NCBI RefSeq assembly: GCF_030409755.1
Contig: NZ_JAUFQE010000002.1
Span: 434,001 to 498,000, forward strand
Length of the DNA stretch: 64,000 nucleotides
Source: Vibrio lentus
GTDB taxonomy: Bacteria; Pseudomonadota; Gammaproteobacteria; Enterobacterales; Vibrionaceae
Reading direction: 5' to 3'
In this document: piece after piece, positions 2,435 through 10,566 of the stretch
Layout of the letters: every line of letters starts with the position of its first letter
Numbering within the stretch: position 1 is the first letter of the stretch
The notes under the pieces: model-generated
The model's input: only the letters and a program-made list of their open reading frames with translations
Databases searched by the model: none
Told to the model about the DNA's origin: nothing
Position numbers and translations under genes: made by a program

Positions 2435-3064
2435 TTATTTGGTGCTAGGGCATTCAGTCGAGATGTCTCCAAACTGTTGTTTATGAACATTGATTGTCAG
2501 ATCTCTCGGTTTACTCCAATCGATGATTAACTCAAAAACAGTGTCGTAATCTGAATTCGGCCATTCTGGGATTGGGTCAACGTTATCAAAGCGATGCTTA
2601 ATCAAAGTAACAAGCACTTCAATGCTGATGTGTTCCCACGCCAGTAAAAGATCTGCATTACGGTATTTTTCTAAGAATAACTCATCAAGAATTCCTTCAA
2701 AGTCATTCAAACCATATTGTGTGTTGATGGGCATGCCATATTGGATCGCAGTTGGAGCAATGGTTACCAAAGGACGAACGTAGCTATAGCATTCACCATC
2801 GCCATGCAGCTCGCAGGTTTTAATTGATGGGTTTGGGGCAAAGATGTAGTCCGGTTTATTGAACTCACGTTGAATATAATCTGGTAATAATAGTGCTCTG
2901 TTCAATCCCTGACAGGTTAGGTTACCAAGGCCGTCATCTGGCTTTTCGGCATGTCGAACAAGAATAATTCGTTGTACTTCATCTTTACTTGTTTTTTCTG
3001 CTTCCGCAGTTGCAGTATTACAAGCCATACCTAAGAGTACCGCCAAGAATATTTTTACTTTCAT
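2435..3064 (-). CDS. Exported histidine phosphatase superfamily protein
   Basis: A 209-residue protein with a Sec signal peptide (about residues 1-20, ending TATAEA) and the phosphoglycerate-mutase-like catalytic motif RHAEKP near residue 37, which carries the phospho-accepting His. A Gly-Leu-Asn stretch (CQGLNRAL) follows, as in branch members annotated as periplasmic histidine phosphatases. A second catalytic His is plausible in WEHIS near 144. The substrate is unknown. It lies 81 bases downstream of the OprB-like porin gene on the same strand and may be cotranscribed with it. Confidence 0.78.
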   Translation of the reverse strand: MKVKIFLAVLLGMACNTATAEAEKTSKDEVQRIILVRHAEKPDDGLGNLTCQGLNRALLLPDYIQREFNKPDYIFAPNPSIKTCELHGDGECYSYVRPLVTIAPTAIQYGMPINTQYGLNDFEGILDELFLEKYRNADLLLAWEHISIEVLVTLIKHRFDNVDPIPEWPNSDYDTVFELIIDWSKPRDLTINVHKQQFGDISTECPSTK

Positions 3065-3145: not shown

Positions 3146-4357
3146 TTAGAACTCGAACTTTGCTTTTAGGGCAAATACCACATCGGTTTTATTCTGGATT
3201 AAATTGATGTTGTCGAAGCCATTGGTCAGATCAATCGCGGTGTGATTCAGAACTTGCACACTTGGAGAAATTTGCAGCCATGGTGTGATTTGAGCTCGGT
3301 AATACGCTTCAGTTGTATATTGGTCACCTAAGTCCAACCCTTGCGTTGTGCTCTCCATTGGGCTTGCCCAGTTAACTGCCAGTCCAAACATGTCTTGGTT
3401 TCTCTGTGCAGGAATGTAACCAAAGCCGACGCTTACTGAGGCGTCGTACATGGCTCCGCCATCTTGAGCCCATCCAGCCCTAATGAAAGGCAACCAACGC
3501 TCAGCCACTAAACCTGATAGAGACAGGTTGATACCGTAACCTTCATCATCGTTTCCAACTGCGTCACGCTGCCATAGGCTGATATGAGCATTGCTGATGA
3601 ACAGCATATCTTTACTTGGTGTCCAACCGAGTTCTAAGCTTTTCCAAGTGGCTCCTGTGTCAAAGAGCTCTTTGGCTCCTTCTACTAAGTCAGAAGCGTT
3701 GCCTTTAGCATCAAGAATACTGGCCGAGCCATAAATGCTATCTGAGAAAAAACCGCCGGCCATAACACCCAGTGCACCATCAGGCAATCCACCAATCGTT
3801 CCACTACCGGAAGTAAACACACCATTGTTGAAGTCATTCCATGGACTAGCTAACGCATAAAAATCGGTGTAATCCGTCATGTCTAAGAAACCGGCGTAAA
3901 CCACCATCTGTTCTTGCATTAGAGACTGACGCCAAAATAAATGAGTAGTTCTAAAGCCTTGATCACCATATAAGGAGTGAGCAAAACCTAAGTAACCGAG
4001 ATCGGCCAAACCGTATTCTTTCGGGGAGTTTTCAGTGTATTTATGTCGATGTTCAAACTTGAAAACAATTCCACCTTTGTCTCCATCTTCTGTCTCTAGA
4101 AGATCCCATTGACCAAAGACTCTTAATGCTCCTGCCGCAGCAGATGAATCCCCAAGAGGATCAATCGCTCCCATACTCAGCATGTTGTAATCCATGCCCA
4201 ACTGTAAGCCATGTTCTTTTTGAAGGTTTTGCTTGGTTTCATTCCATGAATCGTAATGTGAACGCGAAGTCGAGGACTCTACTGGCATTGCTTCAGCGGT
4301 TGTTACCCCTGATGCCAATATCAGAGCAACCGTTGACAGGTTCAAAAGATGTTTCAT
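3146..4357 (-). CDS. OprB-family carbohydrate-selective porin
   Basis: A 403-residue outer membrane beta-barrel. It has a signal peptide ending TTAEAMPVE near residue 23, alternating beta strands throughout and a terminal Phe (KAKFEF), which is the outer membrane assembly signal. The arrangement YDSWNETKQNLQ then GLQLGMDYN near the N-terminus and the wide barrel match OprB-type porins for uptake of sugars and other small solutes. The start has a usable Shine-Dalgarno (AAGAGG). A 21-bp inverted repeat shared with two other promoters lies 159-179 bases upstream, so I infer control by the LysR regulator at 5531. Confidence 0.82.
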   Translation of the reverse strand: MKHLLNLSTVALILASGVTTAEAMPVESSTSRSHYDSWNETKQNLQKEHGLQLGMDYNMLSMGAIDPLGDSSAAAGALRVFGQWDLLETEDGDKGGIVFKFEHRHKYTENSPKEYGLADLGYLGFAHSLYGDQGFRTTHLFWRQSLMQEQMVVYAGFLDMTDYTDFYALASPWNDFNNGVFTSGSGTIGGLPDGALGVMAGGFFSDSIYGSASILDAKGNASDLVEGAKELFDTGATWKSLELGWTPSKDMLFISNAHISLWQRDAVGNDDEGYGINLSLSGLVAERWLPFIRAGWAQDGGAMYDASVSVGFGYIPAQRNQDMFGLAVNWASPMESTTQGLDLGDQYTTEAYYRAQITPWLQISPSVQVLNHTAIDLTNGFDNINLIQNKTDVVFALKAKFEF

Positions 4358-4515
4358 TTTAACCTCTTAGTAATTACGACTCAGCTTGGTTAATCAAACA
4401 CGCTGAGTGCAAAAATAATGATGTATCTAATTTAGGAGTGGGTGACTGAACTCGATTATTACTTCGCCAATCTGCCGTCATGGTATTCGCGATATCGAAA
4501 CTGAAGAAATTCGGT

Positions 4516-4536
4516 TTGTCTGACCCAATAGGACAA
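4516..4536. promoter_or_regulatory. Inverted-repeat operator copy 1 (upstream of OprB-like porin)
   Basis: TTGTCTGA, five bases, then TAGGACAA. The outer TTGTC/GACAA arms are perfect. It matches copies at 5382-5402 and 8709-8729 in arm sequence, spacing and total length. It lies between the porin gene and the gene ending at 4551. I infer a binding site for the LysR protein encoded at 5531. Confidence 0.6.
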
Positions 4537-4550
4537 TGACCGTTGAGGTT

Positions 4551-5309
4551 TTAGAAATAGGCGCGGTATAAGAACCAAGCTGCCGTGTCATCAACATGTT
4601 GAGTTTTGACGGCTGATTTTACGTCGCCATAAGTGTTCTCTACTCTTAGCTCTCCCCAGCGAGATTTATCTTGTGATAAAGGTGTTGCAAGGCGGAGTGT
4701 TGTTTTCAAGGTGCTGCTTTCAAGATCGCCGTCGATGTATGTGTATTCCGGATTGAAGGTGAAAAAAGTGCCATCGTCGCCAGTTTTAACGTTTAGGAAT
4801 GCCGCAGCAGTACCACCAATCGCGGTTTGGTCGTTGATGCCAAATCCACCGCTTTGGATAAAGTCTTCTTTGTATTCGCCTGCCAATGCGCCTGCGCGAA
4901 GGAACACAGTAAAACGTTCACTGTCCGTGTTAATTGCTGCTACGCCACCGACTGCTGCAGTGCTGACCATGTCGTTGTCTATAAGATCGAGTGACGCCGC
5001 GACTTTAGGGACTGATGCGCTATCAAGATTGAATACATGGAAGTATTGGACACGTGCATCACTGTATTTGCCTTCATTCGTCATATTGCCTTCGGCTACG
5101 ATCATGGCTTGCTGTTGTTCATTGATTGGCATTGCCATGGTGCCCATCGCTTTCACTTTGCCGGTGTTGCTAAGGCCAACAGTGAATGAGGTTACAGCTC
5201 GTGCGACATCGGATGGGTCCACACTTTGTTCTTCATCAGCCAAAATGAAAGGAGAGGTAAGCAGTGATAAGGTCAAAGCGGTCGCGGTAAAAGTCTTGGT
5301 GGTATTCAT
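4551..5309 (-). CDS. Putative outer membrane protein, unknown family
   Basis: A 252-residue protein with a signal peptide (ending FILADEE, about residue 25) and a C-terminal aromatic ending (FLYRAYF) typical of outer membrane barrels. Alternating polar/hydrophobic strands separated by short turns occupy the mature part. I do not recognise a characterised family. It is divergent from the LysR gene at 5531, and the shared 220-base intergenic region holds the best copy of the local inverted repeat, so joint control is likely. Confidence 0.7.
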   Translation of the reverse strand: MNTTKTFTATALTLSLLTSPFILADEEQSVDPSDVARAVTSFTVGLSNTGKVKAMGTMAMPINEQQQAMIVAEGNMTNEGKYSDARVQYFHVFNLDSASVPKVAASLDLIDNDMVSTAAVGGVAAINTDSERFTVFLRAGALAGEYKEDFIQSGGFGINDQTAIGGTAAAFLNVKTGDDGTFFTFNPEYTYIDGDLESSTLKTTLRLATPLSQDKSRWGELRVENTYGDVKSAVKTQHVDDTAAWFLYRAYF

Positions 5310-5381
5310 ATCGGTATTTCACATAGGTTGTTTAGATAAGCCGGAATGATATAAACGTTTAATGGAAACTCAGAATTGCTA

Positions 5382-5402
5382 TTGTCTGACGTGATCAGAC
5401 AA
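5382..5402. promoter_or_regulatory. Inverted-repeat operator copy 2 (between outer membrane protein and LysR genes)
   Basis: TTGTCTGA, the spacer CGTGA, then TCAGACAA: a perfect 8-bp inverted repeat with a 5-base gap. It lies 73 bases before the 4551-5309 gene and 129 bases before the LysR start, as expected for a LysR-type regulator binding in a divergent promoter. It is the most symmetrical of three copies in this region. Confidence 0.68.
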
Positions 5403-5530
5403 ACTACTTGAACCTTGTTGGTTTTTTTTTGAGGTGGAAGTCGTAACCTATTCATGTTCTGTCTATACTCATCACGTCAAAGTGATTGATTTGAAAGCAA
5501 CAAAGCATAATTTGAATATTGGAGTCATCT

Positions 5531-6439
5531 ATGAATTTCAGCCTCGAGCAACTCTCCACCTTTGTGACGGTTTACGAGCAAAAGTCTTTTAGCAAGGCGG
5601 CCGCTAAGCTAGATAAACACCGTAGTACCGTCGGGCAAGTTGTTGTCAATTTAGAGGATATTCTTGATGTCGCACTCTTTGAGCGCAAAGGTCGCAGTGT
5701 TGAAGCAACACAAGAAGGGAAGTTACTTTACCGCTATGCAAAGCAAGCCGTCGAGCAGCTAAAAGCCTTTGATAAAATAGCGCTCAACATTTCCCGAGGC
5801 GAACCAGAAACCATCAATATTGGTTATCTAAGCTTTATGCCACAGCTCATTTTGGTTGATATCAGGATGCAATTACAAAAAGACTTTCCAGGTTGTAGAG
5901 TCAATATGCTGGTCATGAATAAAAAGGAGATTAAGCAGGGGATTGAAGATGGGACACTGCACTTCGGTTTTGTGAATACTCACGAGAGTAGGGCGATGAA
6001 TAGCTTTCACGCGGTTTACCTAGAAACCCTTACGCTGATCCCATTCGCAAGTAAAGGCAGTGAACTGAGTAAAACGCCACCAAACGAACTGTTCTCTAAG
6101 TTAAAAATATCTAAGCAGTTAATCTTGAAATCATTAATCGATGAAGGGATGGCAGATAAAGTCACCCTTTCTGCTAACTATGAGCTTGTTGACCAACTTG
6201 CGCTTGTGATCCAATTGGTTCAGCTGGACTTAGGTTGGGCGTTACTTCCTCGCTCTGTTATTTACTCTGAATTTGTGCAGCAAAATTTAATTGAGCTCAA
6301 GCCTACTGAGATTAAAAAAGGGTTAGAGATTCCCATTTCATTATGGAGCCCACACTCTTTGCATATTGAAGGGATAAGGGAATCTATCGTTACTGCTGCT
6401 AATGAATACATCCAACACGTTTATGATGAATACTTCTAA
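5531..6439 (+). CDS. LysR-family transcriptional regulator
   Basis: A 302-residue regulator with an N-terminal winged helix-turn-helix (about residues 5-60; SFSKAAAKLDKHRSTVGQVV spans the recognition region) and a periplasmic-binding-protein-like effector domain from about 90. The ATG at 5531 is chosen because GGAG lies 6 bases upstream; a TTG at 5519 would overlap that ribosome site. It is divergent from a putative outer membrane protein gene, and three copies of one inverted repeat precede its neighbours, which suggests it controls the surrounding porin and amidohydrolase genes. The effector is unknown; a D-amino acid or N-acyl amino acid is a reasonable guess. Confidence 0.88.
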   Translation: MNFSLEQLSTFVTVYEQKSFSKAAAKLDKHRSTVGQVVVNLEDILDVALFERKGRSVEATQEGKLLYRYAKQAVEQLKAFDKIALNISRGEPETINIGYLSFMPQLILVDIRMQLQKDFPGCRVNMLVMNKKEIKQGIEDGTLHFGFVNTHESRAMNSFHAVYLETLTLIPFASKGSELSKTPPNELFSKLKISKQLILKSLIDEGMADKVTLSANYELVDQLALVIQLVQLDLGWALLPRSVIYSEFVQQNLIELKPTEIKKGLEIPISLWSPHSLHIEGIRESIVTAANEYIQHVYDEYF

Positions 6440-6461
6440 CTTGGGTTTATTAGATTAAAAA

Positions 6462-6488
6462 AACAGCCAGTAAAAATCACTGGCTGTT
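6462..6488. terminator. Bidirectional intrinsic terminator
   Basis: AACAGCCAGT and ACTGGCTGTT form a perfect 10-bp stem with a 7-base loop between the convergent LysR gene and the 6500-6886 gene. An A-tract precedes it, so it should terminate best for the leftward transcript, with weaker action rightward. Confidence 0.75.
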
Positions 6489-6499
6489 ATGAGAGCATA

Positions 6500-6886
6500 T
6501 TAGTGCGCGTTAGGTAGATCGTCTCCAATCGCTTGTCGTAACTTCATCAATTTCGTTCTTTGCCAGATATTCGTACTTGATATCTGAATCTCGAACTCTT
6601 GGTGTTCATCACAAAAGATCGCTGATGGCAATTGGTCATAACTTCCGATCAAATCATCAAGTTGCACCTGAGACAAATTGGCGACATCTACGCCGACTTC
6701 GCTTACATATGAGGCCAGTTTACTCTCCTGAACTAACGTTGGCGCTTTCGGTTCTTTGACAGATATTTGTTGTCCTGTTTGTTTAAAACTAGACACATCA
6801 AATCCCATATCATCGATGCTAGTTGCACTTGTCGTTCCTGAAAACGAACCCGTGAGTAGCAATGCACATATAGCCTTTTTGATCAT
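6500..6886 (-). CDS. Small exported protein of unknown function
   Basis: A 128-residue protein with a clear Sec signal peptide (basic MIKK, hydrophobic core, cleavage after TTSATS or nearby, about residue 22). The mature part is polar with one Cys (FCDEHQEF) and no domain I recognise. It begins 17 bases downstream of the amidohydrolase stop, so the two are almost certainly cotranscribed, and it is likely to act in the same periplasmic pathway. Confidence 0.65.
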   Translation of the reverse strand: MIKKAICALLLTGSFSGTTSATSIDDMGFDVSSFKQTGQQISVKEPKAPTLVQESKLASYVSEVGVDVANLSQVQLDDLIGSYDQLPSAIFCDEHQEFEIQISSTNIWQRTKLMKLRQAIGDDLPNAH

Positions 6887-6903
6887 GATTACCTCACCTT
6901 TTT

Positions 6904-8565
6904 CTATAGTTGCGGATTGCCAGAGGCACCCGAGTCATCGATAGAAATCGTTGGTACTGTTAGGTTTTCCAAGAACTTTTCTTTGCTCAATCCTTCAAAT
7001 CGCGATTCATCCGATGGTGTGTTACGAATGGGTTGGCCTGCCCATACTTTTTGGAACTCAGCTTCTTTAACCACTTGCTCACCATTTACGATGACATAAG
7101 AAATACCGGTTGTTGGATTGCCTTGTTCTTTGGCTTTGTAAGTCGCATTATCGGTTACGTTTTCTGGGTCGAAAATGGTGATATCCGCAACCATGCCTTC
7201 TTGCATACGACCACGAACTTTCATTGATTCAACCCCCGCATCACCTAGGTGCTTTGCTGCCCAGTAAGACGTTTGAGCAAGTGTGAATAACAATGGTACG
7301 CCTTCTTCACGTGCCATACGTAATACTTTGCCTCGAGTACCCGCAGTTCGAGGGTGACCTTGATATTCTGTTGGATCGGCATCCCAAGAATCAGTACCTA
7401 AACCTGAATAGATAGAATCTGCTGCAACGGTCATGTTTGGAATTTGTAGCCAGTATTTCATCCAATCTTTACGTGCAGGGCTAAACAGAACCACCAAGTG
7501 ACCCGGATCTTCAGCGGCAATGACCAGATACTCTTCTTTGGTCAGAAATTTATCGCGTGTTGGGTCGTACATCATTTCTTCATACTTCGCGTTGTACATC
7601 CCTTCCACAGATTCCGGTACAAGGAAAGATGAACCAATCGCAGTGGATGCTGCATCATATGGGTAGTATTCAGACCACATCACTAAGCCTTTTTCTCGTG
7701 CAAGCTTTAGCTTTTCTTCCACTTCCCACCAACCGAAGTCGTTGTTGTGGTGCATCAAAAATGGTAAGTCGAGAAGCATCGCATTGGTAAAGATTTCGTC
7801 AAAACCTAGCTGTGCTTCTGGATTTGAAGGGTTAGCGTGAAAACGTGTATGTGATGATACAAATCGGTCCCAGTTTGCTGCGACTTTCATGGACTCGTAC
7901 ATCTCAAATGCCGTCAAGCCATCTTTCATATAAGCGGTTGTTGAAGCTAGGTTCAATGCACCTTCTGCAAAGCCTTGATCAAGAACAGAAAGGATTTGGT
8001 TCATCTGCTCGATGTCAGCTTTTGTCTCAGACCAGCCACTCACACCGTCTTTAGCCGCTTCTGTTCGAAGCGAGCCAAGAATCGTAGTCGCATCATGTGG
8101 GCCTGTAATTTTCACTTCAGGATCTAGGATTTGAAGACGAGCTCCTTCGTGGCTGACACCAGTACCGTAGTTCAGTGGCCATTTACCCGCTTTTTCTTCA
8201 TACCACTCACCGACGCGAATCGCACCGACTTCCAGATCCATACCCGTTGTTACACCATCTAGGGCTGCAAGCTTGATAGATAAACCATCTAGCGAGTGAA
8301 AGTGGGTATCAATGAAACCTGGGGCAACCACTTGATTTGTTGCATCGATTGTCTCGTCACCGTCGAGTTTTTCTGCCGTAATTTTGATGATTTGACCATC
8401 TTTGATCCCGACGTTTAATACAGCATCCAGCATGCTTTCAGGGTCCATCACTCGTCCATTCTCGATAACTAGGTCGTAATCCGCGGCAAAAGCTCCTGAC
8501 GCTCCTAGGCACAATGCGATACTAACAAGTCCGCTTATGCGGCCTTTCTTGAATGATTTTTTCAT
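6904..8565 (-). CDS. Exported N-acyl-D-amino-acid deacylase-like amidohydrolase
   Basis: A 553-residue metal-dependent amidohydrolase of the D-aminoacylase branch. It has a Sec signal peptide (residues 1-28, ending GAFAAD), the N-terminal composite beta sandwich ([12 protein letters not shown]), the first metal motif HFH (residues 88-90 in GFIDTHFHS), a later HHNN near 270 and the C-terminal beta strand [12 protein letters not shown]. Family members remove acyl groups from N-acyl-D-amino acids; export to the periplasm is less usual. It leads an operon with the small exported protein at 6500, and a copy of the local inverted repeat lies 144-164 bases upstream. The exact substrate cannot be read from the sequence. 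Confidence 0.82.
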
Positions 8566-9003
8566 GATTTCTCTCTTTGTTGCTGGAAAGGTTAAAAGTG
8601 TTTACCTATTTCAGCTGAAATTAATTGTCGTACTGCCGTTTGTATTTCTGGCTTACCTTTGGAAGCTGAGATAATTCTAGCCCAATTTTTATATAACAAA
8701 ATTTCAGTTTGTCTGATCTGATCCTACAAATTAAAAGCCCTGAGTTAATGATGAGAGTCTTGGTGTTGGTCTTTGAAAGTGATTTCCCATTATTTGGACG
8801 GAATGGATATCGTTGAGGCATAGAACCAATATATGAATATCAGCACGATGGTTATCGGTTTGATGGTGATTCAGGCTTTCGAGTGGCACCGCTTTACTTC
8901 ACCCATTTATTGAATTCGTCACGCATCTCACCTTTACTTTACTCTTGTGAGCAAGCCATCGCTTCAGTCATCAAATGATAAAAAAGAAAAAGGTGAACGA
9001 ACT
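8566..9003. other. Divergent intergenic region
   Basis: This 438-base region separates the leftward amidohydrolase operon from the rightward CDGSH/glutamate-synthase-like gene. It holds the third copy of the local operator (8709-8729). A 66-codon ORF on the minus strand has neither a ribosome site nor protein-like composition, and I do not call it. Confidence 0.5.
8709..8729. promoter_or_regulatory. Inverted-repeat operator copy 3 (upstream of amidohydrolase)
   Basis: TTGTCTGA, the spacer TCTGA, then TCCTACAA. The left arm is identical to the other two copies (4516, 5382) and the right arm keeps TNNNACAA. It could serve the amidohydrolase on the left, the glutamate-synthase-like gene on the right, or both. 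Confidence 0.55.
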
Positions 9004-10566
9004 ATGAAGAATCCAGTGATAGCGGATACCAAGCCAATCAAAGTGGAGCTAACCGAAGGGGAGGAGTACTACTTCTGTACCTGTGGTAAATCGAAAAACC
9101 AACCGTTTTGTGATGGTTCTCATGCAGGTACCGGCTTTAAACCGAAGAGTTTTGTGGCCGAAGAAAACGGCGACGCCTATCTGTGTCGCTGTAAATATTC
9201 GAACAACCTACCTTTTTGCGATGGCACTCATAAACAGTTTACGGCTGAACAGGTTGGGCAAGAAGGCCCAGAGGTTCACATCCAAGCGGCTGCGCCAGAC
9301 TTGTCTCCTGCTGCGAGCGCAACCAAAGAAGAACCCACGGTCGAGTTTATCCATCAACTGGCGCGCGATGGTTTATCTAAGGTTGGGCATCATGGGCCCA
9401 TGACCTCAATGGGTGTGCCAAGATATCTATTGCCGCATTGGGATGATATTCAGGTGATGGTCGCGCAAATGGCGACCAAACCTCTGCTTGAAAATGTGCC
9501 TGTGGGTACGGAACTGATTATTGGCCCTAAAGCGAAGAAGCCGCTCAAGTTGAACATCTCCTTGTTTGTGTCTGATATGAGTTTTGGCTCGTTGTCTGAA
9601 GAAGCGAAAGTCTCGTTGGCGACAGGCGCAGAACTCGCAGGGACGGGTATCTGTTCTGGAGAGGGCGGTATGTTACCCGAAGAGCAAGCCGCGAACTCAC
9701 GTTACTTTTATGAACTGGCCAGTGCTCAGTTTGGTTACGATGAATCTAAGCTCAAGAATGTCCAAGCCTTTCACTTTAAAGGCGGACAGGGGGCGAAAAC
9801 TGGAACAGGCGGTCATCTGCCGGGAGTTAAGAACATCGGTAAGATTGCAGAGGTACGCGGCATTGAAGCGGGCACGGCTGCGATTTCTCCACCAACCTTT
9901 GTTGATCTAAAAACCGTCGCGGATTTTAAAAAGTTCGCCGACCGAGTTCGAGAAGTAACAGGCGGAATCCCGATTGGCTTCAAGTTGAGTGCCAATCACA
10001 TTGAAGAAGACATTCAGTTTGCACTCGATGCCAGTGCCGATTACATCATCTTGGATGGGCGTGGTGGCGGTACAGGCGCTGCGCCTGAAATGTTCCGAGA
10101 CCATATCAGTGTTCCCACCATTCCAGCACTTGCTCGTGCCAGAGCTTATTTAGACAAGCAAGGTGTCAGTGACAGAGTCACCTTAATCATTACTGGCGGA
10201 CTTCGTGTTCCGATGGACTTTGTGAAAGCGATGGCGCTTGGCGCTGATGGTGTCGCCATCTCGAACAGCGCCATGCAGTCGATTGGTTGTGTGGCGGCGA
10301 GAATGTGTAATACCAACAATTGCCCAGCAGGCATCGCGACTCAAAAAGCCGACTTACGCCAACGGCTAAACGTTGAAAAGGCATCGAACCAATTGAAGAA
10401 CTTCTTCGAAGCTTCGACTGAATTGATGCAAGTGATGGCGAGAGCGTGCGGTCATGATCATTTGAATCAATTTAACCCGCACGATTTAGCGACATGGAAT
10501 CGTGAAATGGCAGAGTTATCAGGTGTAACTTATTCAGGTGTCAGCCCTTTAAATCAATCTAAGTAA
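9004..10566 (+). CDS. Glutamate synthase-like FMN protein with two N-terminal CDGSH iron-sulfur motifs
   Basis: A 520-residue fusion. The first 80 residues carry two CDGSH-type [2Fe-2S] motifs: C25, C27, C36, H40 (PFCDGSH) and C61, C63, C72, H76 (PFCDGTH). From about residue 120 on it matches the FMN-binding glutamate synthase domain (GltB2-like), with FHFKGGQGAK, the Gly-rich DGRGGGTGAAPE and the 3Fe-4S-type Cys segment CNTNNCPAGIATQ. It lacks the glutaminase domain, so it is a glutamate-synthase-related oxidoreductase and not a full GltB. The ATG at 9004 follows AAAGGTGA; the earlier start at 8947 lacks a ribosome site. It sits next to the amidohydrolase operon and a shared operator. Confidence 0.85.
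   Translation: MKNPVIADTKPIKVELTEGEEYYFCTCGKSKNQPFCDGSHAGTGFKPKSFVAEENGDAYLCRCKYSNNLPFCDGTHKQFTAEQVGQEGPEVHIQAAAPDLSPAASATKEEPTVEFIHQLARDGLSKVGHHGPMTSMGVPRYLLPHWDDIQVMVAQMATKPLLENVPVGTELIIGPKAKKPLKLNISLFVSDMSFGSLSEEAKVSLATGAELAGTGICSGEGGMLPEEQAANSRYFYELASAQFGYDESKLKNVQAFHFKGGQGAKTGTGGHLPGVKNIGKIAEVRGIEAGTAAISPPTFVDLKTVADFKKFADRVREVTGGIPIGFKLSANHIEEDIQFALDASADYIILDGRGGGTGAAPEMFRDHISVPTIPALARARAYLDKQGVSDRVTLIITGGLRVPMDFVKAMALGADGVAISNSAMQSIGCVAARMCNTNNCPAGIATQKADLRQRLNVEKASNQLKNFFEASTELMQVMARACGHDHLNQFNPHDLATWNREMAELSGVTYSGVSPLNQSK

Follow-up and report, generated by a model that had tools for sequence, protein, structure and literature searches.

Does one short palindrome tie a group of neighbouring genes of Vibrio lentus to a single regulator, and what does the enzyme encoded among them hydrolyse? 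The question arises from a 64,000-nucleotide stretch of this bacterium (assembly GCF_030409755.1, contig NZ_JAUFQE010000002.1, positions 434,001 to 498,000), hereafter the window. Its positions 3146-8565 hold a block of genes encoding an OprB porin (-), an outer-membrane protein of 252 residues (OMP252; -), a LysR-type regulator (+), a 128-aa exported protein (-) and an exported amidohydrolase, AmiH (-) (Table 1). A preliminary description of this sequence had proposed a 21-bp operator shared by a small regulon, with LysR as its likely reader, and a self-contained pathway for the uptake of N-acylated D-amino acids. Our analysis supports the regulatory half of that reading and not the substrate half; the block is probably a LysR-controlled module for the hydrolysis of amides in the periplasm.

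Three exact copies of a 21-bp pattern

The pattern TTGTCTGA-N5-TNNNACAA occurs exactly at positions 4516, 5382 and 8709, and the copy at 5382 matches on both strands, in full agreement with the three places and the symmetrical middle copy first described. A copy had also been described for each intergenic region of the block; none lies between the LysR and small-protein genes or between the latter and amiH. The 5.9-Mb genome to which the window belongs (G000, with replicons or contigs labelled C1 and C2) contains five exact places, the three of the block plus single copies in C1 and in another part of C2. The last two fall within open frames of 666 and 877 codons, and the block copies are the only exact ones outside long open frames in the whole genome.

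The reversed control pattern has no exact place in G000. Places with one mismatch number 16 for the real pattern and 14 for the control; since the exact counts differ (five versus none) but the one-mismatch counts are alike, only the exact class stands out. With up to two mismatches the counts were 144+125 versus 100+111 for the control. Measured against the full palindrome TTGTCTGA-N5-TCAGACAA, the three block sites carry 0, 2 and 2 mismatches; the two other places of the genome with two mismatches are both in long open frames, and up to three mismatches there was little excess (32 versus 27 per strand). Within the window, eight matches with up to two mismatches were found against a shuffle mean of 3.3, a modest excess that 2 of 100 shuffles reached. 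The case for an operator rests on the exactness, the position and the conservation of the sites.

Conservation of the sites in related genomes

AmiH is present at 72-75% identity in five other of the 227 genomes of the genus (Vibrio G108, G036, G183, G198 and G220) and in the Agarivorans-like G279, a member of another family, among 394 genomes of the order searched. In V. agarivorans the identities are 88% for AmiH and 71% for the outer-membrane protein. A position weight matrix was built from the three window sites alone, and its best match in each orthologous region was compared with those in 2000 Markov sequences. For the divergent OMP252/LysR promoters of G108, G036, G183 and G220, the best match was reached by 0, 0, 0 and 2 of the 2000 sequences, respectively, and in the 300 bp 5' of amiH of G108, G036, G183, G198 and G220 by 0, 17, 0, 7 and 7. 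Upstream of the OprB gene of G108, G036, G183 and G220 the values were 843, 1826, 595 and 1252, that is, the site is kept in none of the four; in these relatives the OprB gene follows that of OMP252 at roughly 100-200 bp. The expected conservation at orthologous promoters therefore holds for OMP252/LysR and AmiH and fails for OprB, whose site is ruled out as part of the conserved core.

The G279 locus (17 kb) was held out, and its two top scores fell in the promoters of AmiH (21.4) and OMP252/LysR (14.0); the third-best place scored 12.2, and none of the six best preceded the OprB gene. Taken together, the OMP252/LysR site is kept in 5/5 examined relatives with a LysR ortholog (four Vibrio and G279), so that the divergent LysR promoter holds it in all six loci with the ortholog, window included, and the AmiH site is kept in 6/6 relatives with AmiH at the above identity (five Vibrio and G279). 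In the alignments, the sites appear as conserved blocks amid otherwise poorly alignable intergenic DNA. Four loci with a distant AmiH (38-57% identity; L120, L124, L132 and L137) and no LysR ortholog in the stretch had no site (best score, 9.7), and three of them carry an OprB gene.

Because the sites are conserved and no other exact copy lies outside long open frames in G000, neither of the two outcomes named beforehand as refuting the operator, a motif unconserved at orthologous promoters or one spread over unrelated genes, was found, and the proposal of a shared operator with LysR as its likely reader is strengthened. The unit had also been thought to include a CDGSH/GltB-like gene, whose ATG lies at 9004, 275 bp beyond the site at 8709. 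This gene was not found in the related blocks; its orthologs lie elsewhere in 5/6 relatives, with the degenerate motif in none of the five upstream stretches (0/5), and we regard it as a mere neighbour.

The LysR regulator and the operator of its paralogs

The block LysR has an N-terminal HTH_1 and a C-terminal LysR substrate domain, and shares with LysR-type regulators in general these domains, a divergent neighbour and a palindromic operator. Compared with the named NCBIfam models (AceR, GltC, AaeR and others), it passed no cut-off among the best 25 of 54; the nearest were AceR (97.9 bits; cut-off, 500), a selenium-metabolism LysR, CidR and GltC. Relatives at E 1e-60 were found in 72 of the 227 genus genomes, and Shewanella has relatives at 48-52% identity.

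The paralogs of this regulator (~50% identity, in Vibrio and Shewanella) have a related, in-register 21-bp operator, roughly WTGWNGGRYNNNRYCCNWCAW, with the consensus (A/T)TG(A/T)N-GG-(A/G)(T/C)-N3-(A/G)(T/C)-CC-N(A/T)CA(A/T) and T at 0.33 in position 5. The paralog matrix was iterated on the same 39 non-overlapping stretches that it scores (the overlapping L102 and L123 were excluded), at a threshold of 14; some stretches come from near relatives and the places are not all independent. It finds 64 places, 59 of them intergenic, although open frames take up 82% of this DNA. A version trained on the 34 Vibrio stretches alone detected 12 places (11 intergenic) in five Shewanella loci, for which 50 permuted matrices averaged 0.5 and never exceeded three. 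When the iteration was started 30 times from permuted seeds, one run reverted to the real motif (63 places, 58 intergenic), and the remaining 29 yielded 0-22 places, of which 0-3 were intergenic. Early regular-expression and four-mismatch scans of the paralog loci had shown nothing above control (44 window-type places versus 20-90 in 20 permuted controls); the idea that the paralogs use other palindromes was overturned by the matrix scans.

In the window, the best place of the paralog matrix is the site at 8709 (17.5, the next scoring 13.6), which puts the window operator in register with that of the family; the copies at 4516 and 5382 do not score. In the tree, the six LysRs that have the window-type operator make up a single branch (support 100/100), and all six carry Ser at HTH residue 32, where Thr is found in 38/41 other rows, or 36/37 after dropping one double and three far rows. 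By analogy with LysR-DNA structures, this residue presumably touches bases. The window operator thus seems to be a diverged form of the paralog operator, used by one LysR clade.

With gene families defined as mechanical frames joined by single linkage, a place lies directly upstream of AaeA-like genes in 10/16 cases, OMP252 in 10/21, an unnamed exported family in 6/9, C45 N-acyl hydrolases in 5/10, DUF3299 in 5/9, patatin in 3/7, Omp85-like genes in 3/8, AmiH in 4/21 and carboxylesterases in 2/8, compared with 8/241 for other genes and 0/6 for each of the neighbouring VolA-, FadL- and helicase-like families. The AaeB-like genes, located 3' of AaeA, have none directly upstream (0/15). An exported M20 peptidase of the PRK08262 type, which we take to be PM20D1-like, lies near LysR/OMP252 pairs (L107:1905-3419; L104, L106 and L108), with the operator upstream in 2/4. 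In V. lentus itself, the LysR paralog at G000:C1:453156 (52% identity) is separated from its AaeA-like neighbour by a region containing ATAGAGGATTGGATCCATCAA, which scores 13.8 against the threshold of 14. This locus (L097, G000:C1:446000-463000) contains adjoining AaeA/AaeB-like efflux genes, with VolA-like lipase and FadL-like genes near, all labelled by reading.

This LysR family gains a testable regulon and operator. Many exported hydrolases and outer-membrane proteins with no assigned substrate adjoin its members, and the operator together with the gene set could group such 'hypothetical' genes into pathways.

Active site and substrate of AmiH

Signal peptides were judged by reading the sequence, and that of AmiH fits the location claimed for the enzyme in the preliminary description; of its 120 nearest homologs, 114 begin with a hydrophobic stretch by a crude rule. 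Against PRK09061 (NF006560) AmiH scored 325.3 bits, just below the cut-off of 340, and the solved structures closest to its family profile are those of N-acyl-D-glutamate deacylase, D-aminoacylase and OngB. The profile match with the subtype V D-aminoacylase and N-acyl-D-glutamate deacylase (PDB 1M7J and 3GIP) covers the whole length. OngB, described as an N-acetyl-D-glucosaminate deacetylase of oxidative chitin use (PMC12017989; PDB 9KB1), is of the same fold family as AmiH and about as distant from it as D-aminoacylase is.

Subtype V amidohydrolases have a Cys/His/His metal site and a catalytic Asp, according to the same account, which also lists the OngB residues holding the acetamido and carboxylate groups, OngB having Cys97 and Lys254 (PMC12017989). 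AmiH retains His88, His90, His239, His273, Asp383, Tyr212, Tyr301 and Arg406, and hence shares with the D-aminoacylase group the HxH motif, two further His, the catalytic Asp, the Arg of HPR and two Tyr. It differs from that group in its signal peptide and at two active-site positions, the subtype V metal site being altered by Glu112, which aligns with the metal ligand Cys97 of OngB, and Asn275 aligning with the carboxylate-binding Lys254, a pairing that rests on sequence alignment. Among the 120 listed homologs, the best of 4371 at E 1e-30 (7998 scored candidates), Glu112 and Asn275 are each found in 120/120, as are Asp383, His88, His90 and His239; His273 is present in 119/120, with one gap. 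In a wider alignment of 17 rows, Glu112 was found in 17/17, and His took the place of Asn275 in two, L112 and L028.

Given that Glu112 and Asn275 stand in place of Cys and Lys, invariably so in the 120 nearest homologs, the substrate first suggested, N-acyl-D-amino acids, is not supported, and we consider it quite unlikely. The most probable role of AmiH is to cleave a periplasmic amide, and there is about an even chance that its substrate belongs to the class of small N-acylated acids. Judged from these residues, AmiH is not classed here as a D-aminoacylase and would be better called D-aminoacylase-like and non-canonical. The family with Glu for Cys is large, 4371 of the 7998 scored candidates reaching E 1e-30, and all 120 listed members carry the change. 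Several of these homologs carry source annotations as aminoacylase or N-acyl-D-amino-acid deacylase, names on which the active site casts doubt.

Proposed mechanism and alternative explanations

We infer that LysR binds its own divergent site and the other sites, responds to a small acid and adjusts the channels and the hydrolase in concert. In this scheme, the regulator would bind one 21-bp palindromic operator at the divergent promoter of its own gene and that of OMP252, the same operator preceding the gene pair of AmiH and the small protein and, in V. lentus, that of OprB. The three promoters would answer together to a small anionic inducer, probably either the substrate or the product made from it. 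The OMP252 and OprB channels would admit a small acidic N-acyl compound to the periplasm, where AmiH, as an exported zinc-type amidohydrolase, would cut its amide bond. The blocks of most relatives additionally encode a second exported amidohydrolase and a ZrgE-like protein of the DUF3299 type, and the operator precedes some of these genes. The operator itself would be a diverged form of the one that, in the LysR paralogs, precedes exported hydrolases, outer-membrane proteins and AaeA-like efflux genes.

Several observations weigh against a LysR-read operator. Inexact matches show no clear excess, either in the window or in G000, and the OprB site is not kept in relatives. In G198 the AmiH site is kept (17.4), yet the LysR ortholog and OMP252 were not found in its 430-contig assembly. 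The loci with a distant AmiH are a weak control, as that AmiH is distant and L132 comes from G036, which has the ortholog at another place in its genome. The classical LysR box has T-N11-A at the dyad, which is usual and not obligatory; the middle copy has C at position 5 and G at position 17, and T-N11-A is thus missing. Among the paralogs, 12 of the 39 stretches have no place above threshold, that of the own-genome paralog included, and only 10 of 40 LysR genes have a place directly upstream.

Instead of feeding the cell, the module might cleave and dispose of toxic or signalling amides and esters, exported hydrolases cutting them, and AaeAB-like pumps expelling the resulting acids. This is possible, if rather unlikely: the paralog operator directly precedes AaeA-like, C45, patatin and PM20D1-like M20 genes at the frequencies given above, but the genes identified in the window block do not include one for efflux, and both of its outer-membrane proteins are porin-like. 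A self-contained unit for taking up and degrading N-acyl-D-amino acids, with the CDGSH/GltB enzyme as a member, would accord with the solved structures nearest to AmiH and with its catalytic Asp, His residues and carboxylate-binding Arg and Tyr. Glu112 and Asn275 in the 120 nearest homologs, and a CDGSH gene lying elsewhere, without the site, in 5/6 relatives, make this improbable; moreover, a Pfam comparison of 27 proteins revealed no D-amino-acid oxidase or racemase, a search that did not extend to the rest of the genome. Another transcription factor could read the palindrome, LysR being a bystander, as G198 and the missing T-N11-A might suggest; the site in the divergent LysR promoter of all six loci with the ortholog and the in-register related operator in the neighbourhoods of the LysR paralogs argue otherwise, and we give this little credence. 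The small excess of inexact matches in window and genome could be taken to mean that chance or repetition produced three similar functionless 21-mers, a notion made negligible by their conservation within poorly alignable intergenic DNA and by the held-out test in G279.

A LysR-controlled module for periplasmic amide hydrolysis may itself be one case of a broader pattern, which we put forward tentatively and at somewhat less than even chances. LysR paralogs of Vibrio, Shewanella and an Agarivorans-like bacterium would read one 21-bp architecture, each running its own battery of exported hydrolases, channels and acid exporters; one clade would have drifted at inner positions (6 and 16 of the middle copy) together with the Thr32 to Ser change, insulating sister regulons, and AmiH would have acquired a new type of metal site, with Glu for the Cys of D-aminoacylase, and a new substrate. 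In a literature search of open-licence PMC full text, none of the titles or abstracts examined concerned this locus; we do not claim that the operator is unpublished.

Gene content of the block and additional sites

Table 1. Coordinates of the operator copies, genes and hairpin of the block within the window
Feature	Position	Strand	Remarks
OprB-family porin, 403 aa	3146..4357	-	PF04966, 48.9 bits (cut-off 22.9), residues 288-403 only
Operator copy 3	4516..4536	.	Between OMP252 and OprB genes; 159 bp 5' of OprB start
OMP252, predicted outer-membrane 12-strand barrel, 252 aa	4551..5309	-	
Operator copy 1	5382..5402	.	Perfect palindrome in divergent OMP252/LysR promoter; conserved core site
LysR-type regulator	5531..6439	+	PF00126, 59.6 bits, and PF03466, 47.2 bits, both above cut-off
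Terminator-like hairpin	6462..6488	-	Between converging LysR and small-protein genes; 12-pair stem, T tail
Small exported protein, 128 aa	6500..6886	-	3' of AmiH; conserved CD.H and W.RT residues
AmiH, exported D-aminoacylase-like amidohydrolase, 553 aa	6904..8565	-	PF07969; Glu112 for metal-ligand Cys
Operator copy 2	8709..8729	.	144 bp 5' of AmiH start

OprB relatives at 66-73% identity adjoin the same genes in the related blocks. OMP252 matches no Pfam family at E 0.001; its predicted model and fold matches suggest a 12-strand barrel of KdgM/NanC-like fold. It would share this fold with the 12-strand monomeric porins KdgM and NanC, and at 6-13% identity in the fold-match rows, with no Pfam match, it is not assigned to their family. 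The small exported protein adjoins AmiH in 6/6 relatives, and its structure model (pLDDT 41) is unusable. The terminator-like hairpin is a consensus match only, one of 12 in the region, where shuffled sequences gave 7.9 on average. At 2435-3064, adjoining the OprB gene, the window encodes a 209-aa exported protein with RHAEKP, histidine-phosphatase-like by reading; it had no Pfam match, and no relative was found in the related blocks.

Most blocks of the relatives also hold a DUF3299 protein and the second exported amidohydrolase, F28. In G220 and G279, the F28 gene is divergent from amiH and shares its site, and in G036 a third site precedes the DUF3299-F28 genes (L099:11904). The F28 genes of G183 and G198 are preceded, at distances of 100 and 86 bp, by weak places (14.4 and 11.9) no better than noise, the latter within a mechanical 96-codon frame. 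The block matrix was built from 11 distinct block site sequences, and scores within the blocks are partly by construction; since it gives 15.3 to a place inside the OprB frame of G108 and 18.4 to the best paralog place, these two F28 sites are insecure.

A degenerate pattern, TGTNKGAYNNNAYNNKACR, has 34 places in six genomes, against seven for its reversed form; 13 of the 34 fall in the blocks by construction, the pattern being drawn from them. The 29 places examined comprise nine coding and 20 intergenic ones (13 in blocks, seven elsewhere). Operator-like intergenic sites away from a LysR gene were observed at G036:C2:124633 and 126676 (L168 and L171) and at G220:C1:581031 (L149), adjoining exported genes that are patatin-like and esterase-like by reading. 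Furthermore, an identical operator-like 19-mer, TGTATGATTTCATGGTACA, is present at G000:C2:758623-758641 and at G183:C82:145940-145958 (L166), where it is intergenic and precedes a gene for a 216-aa exported protein.

DUF3299 corresponds to ZrgE of the V. parahaemolyticus Zrg operon, as named in PMC9817125, and a possible link to zinc was noted both in this component of the blocks and in a CobW-like GTPase beside AmiH paralogs. The gene for this CobW/ZigA-like GTPase adjoins AmiH paralogs in L110, L126, L128, L130 and L133, and in L110, L126, L130 and L133 it sits between two of them, with a ThrE-type exporter nearby; this neighbour is a possible metal-supply link for the exported amidohydrolases.

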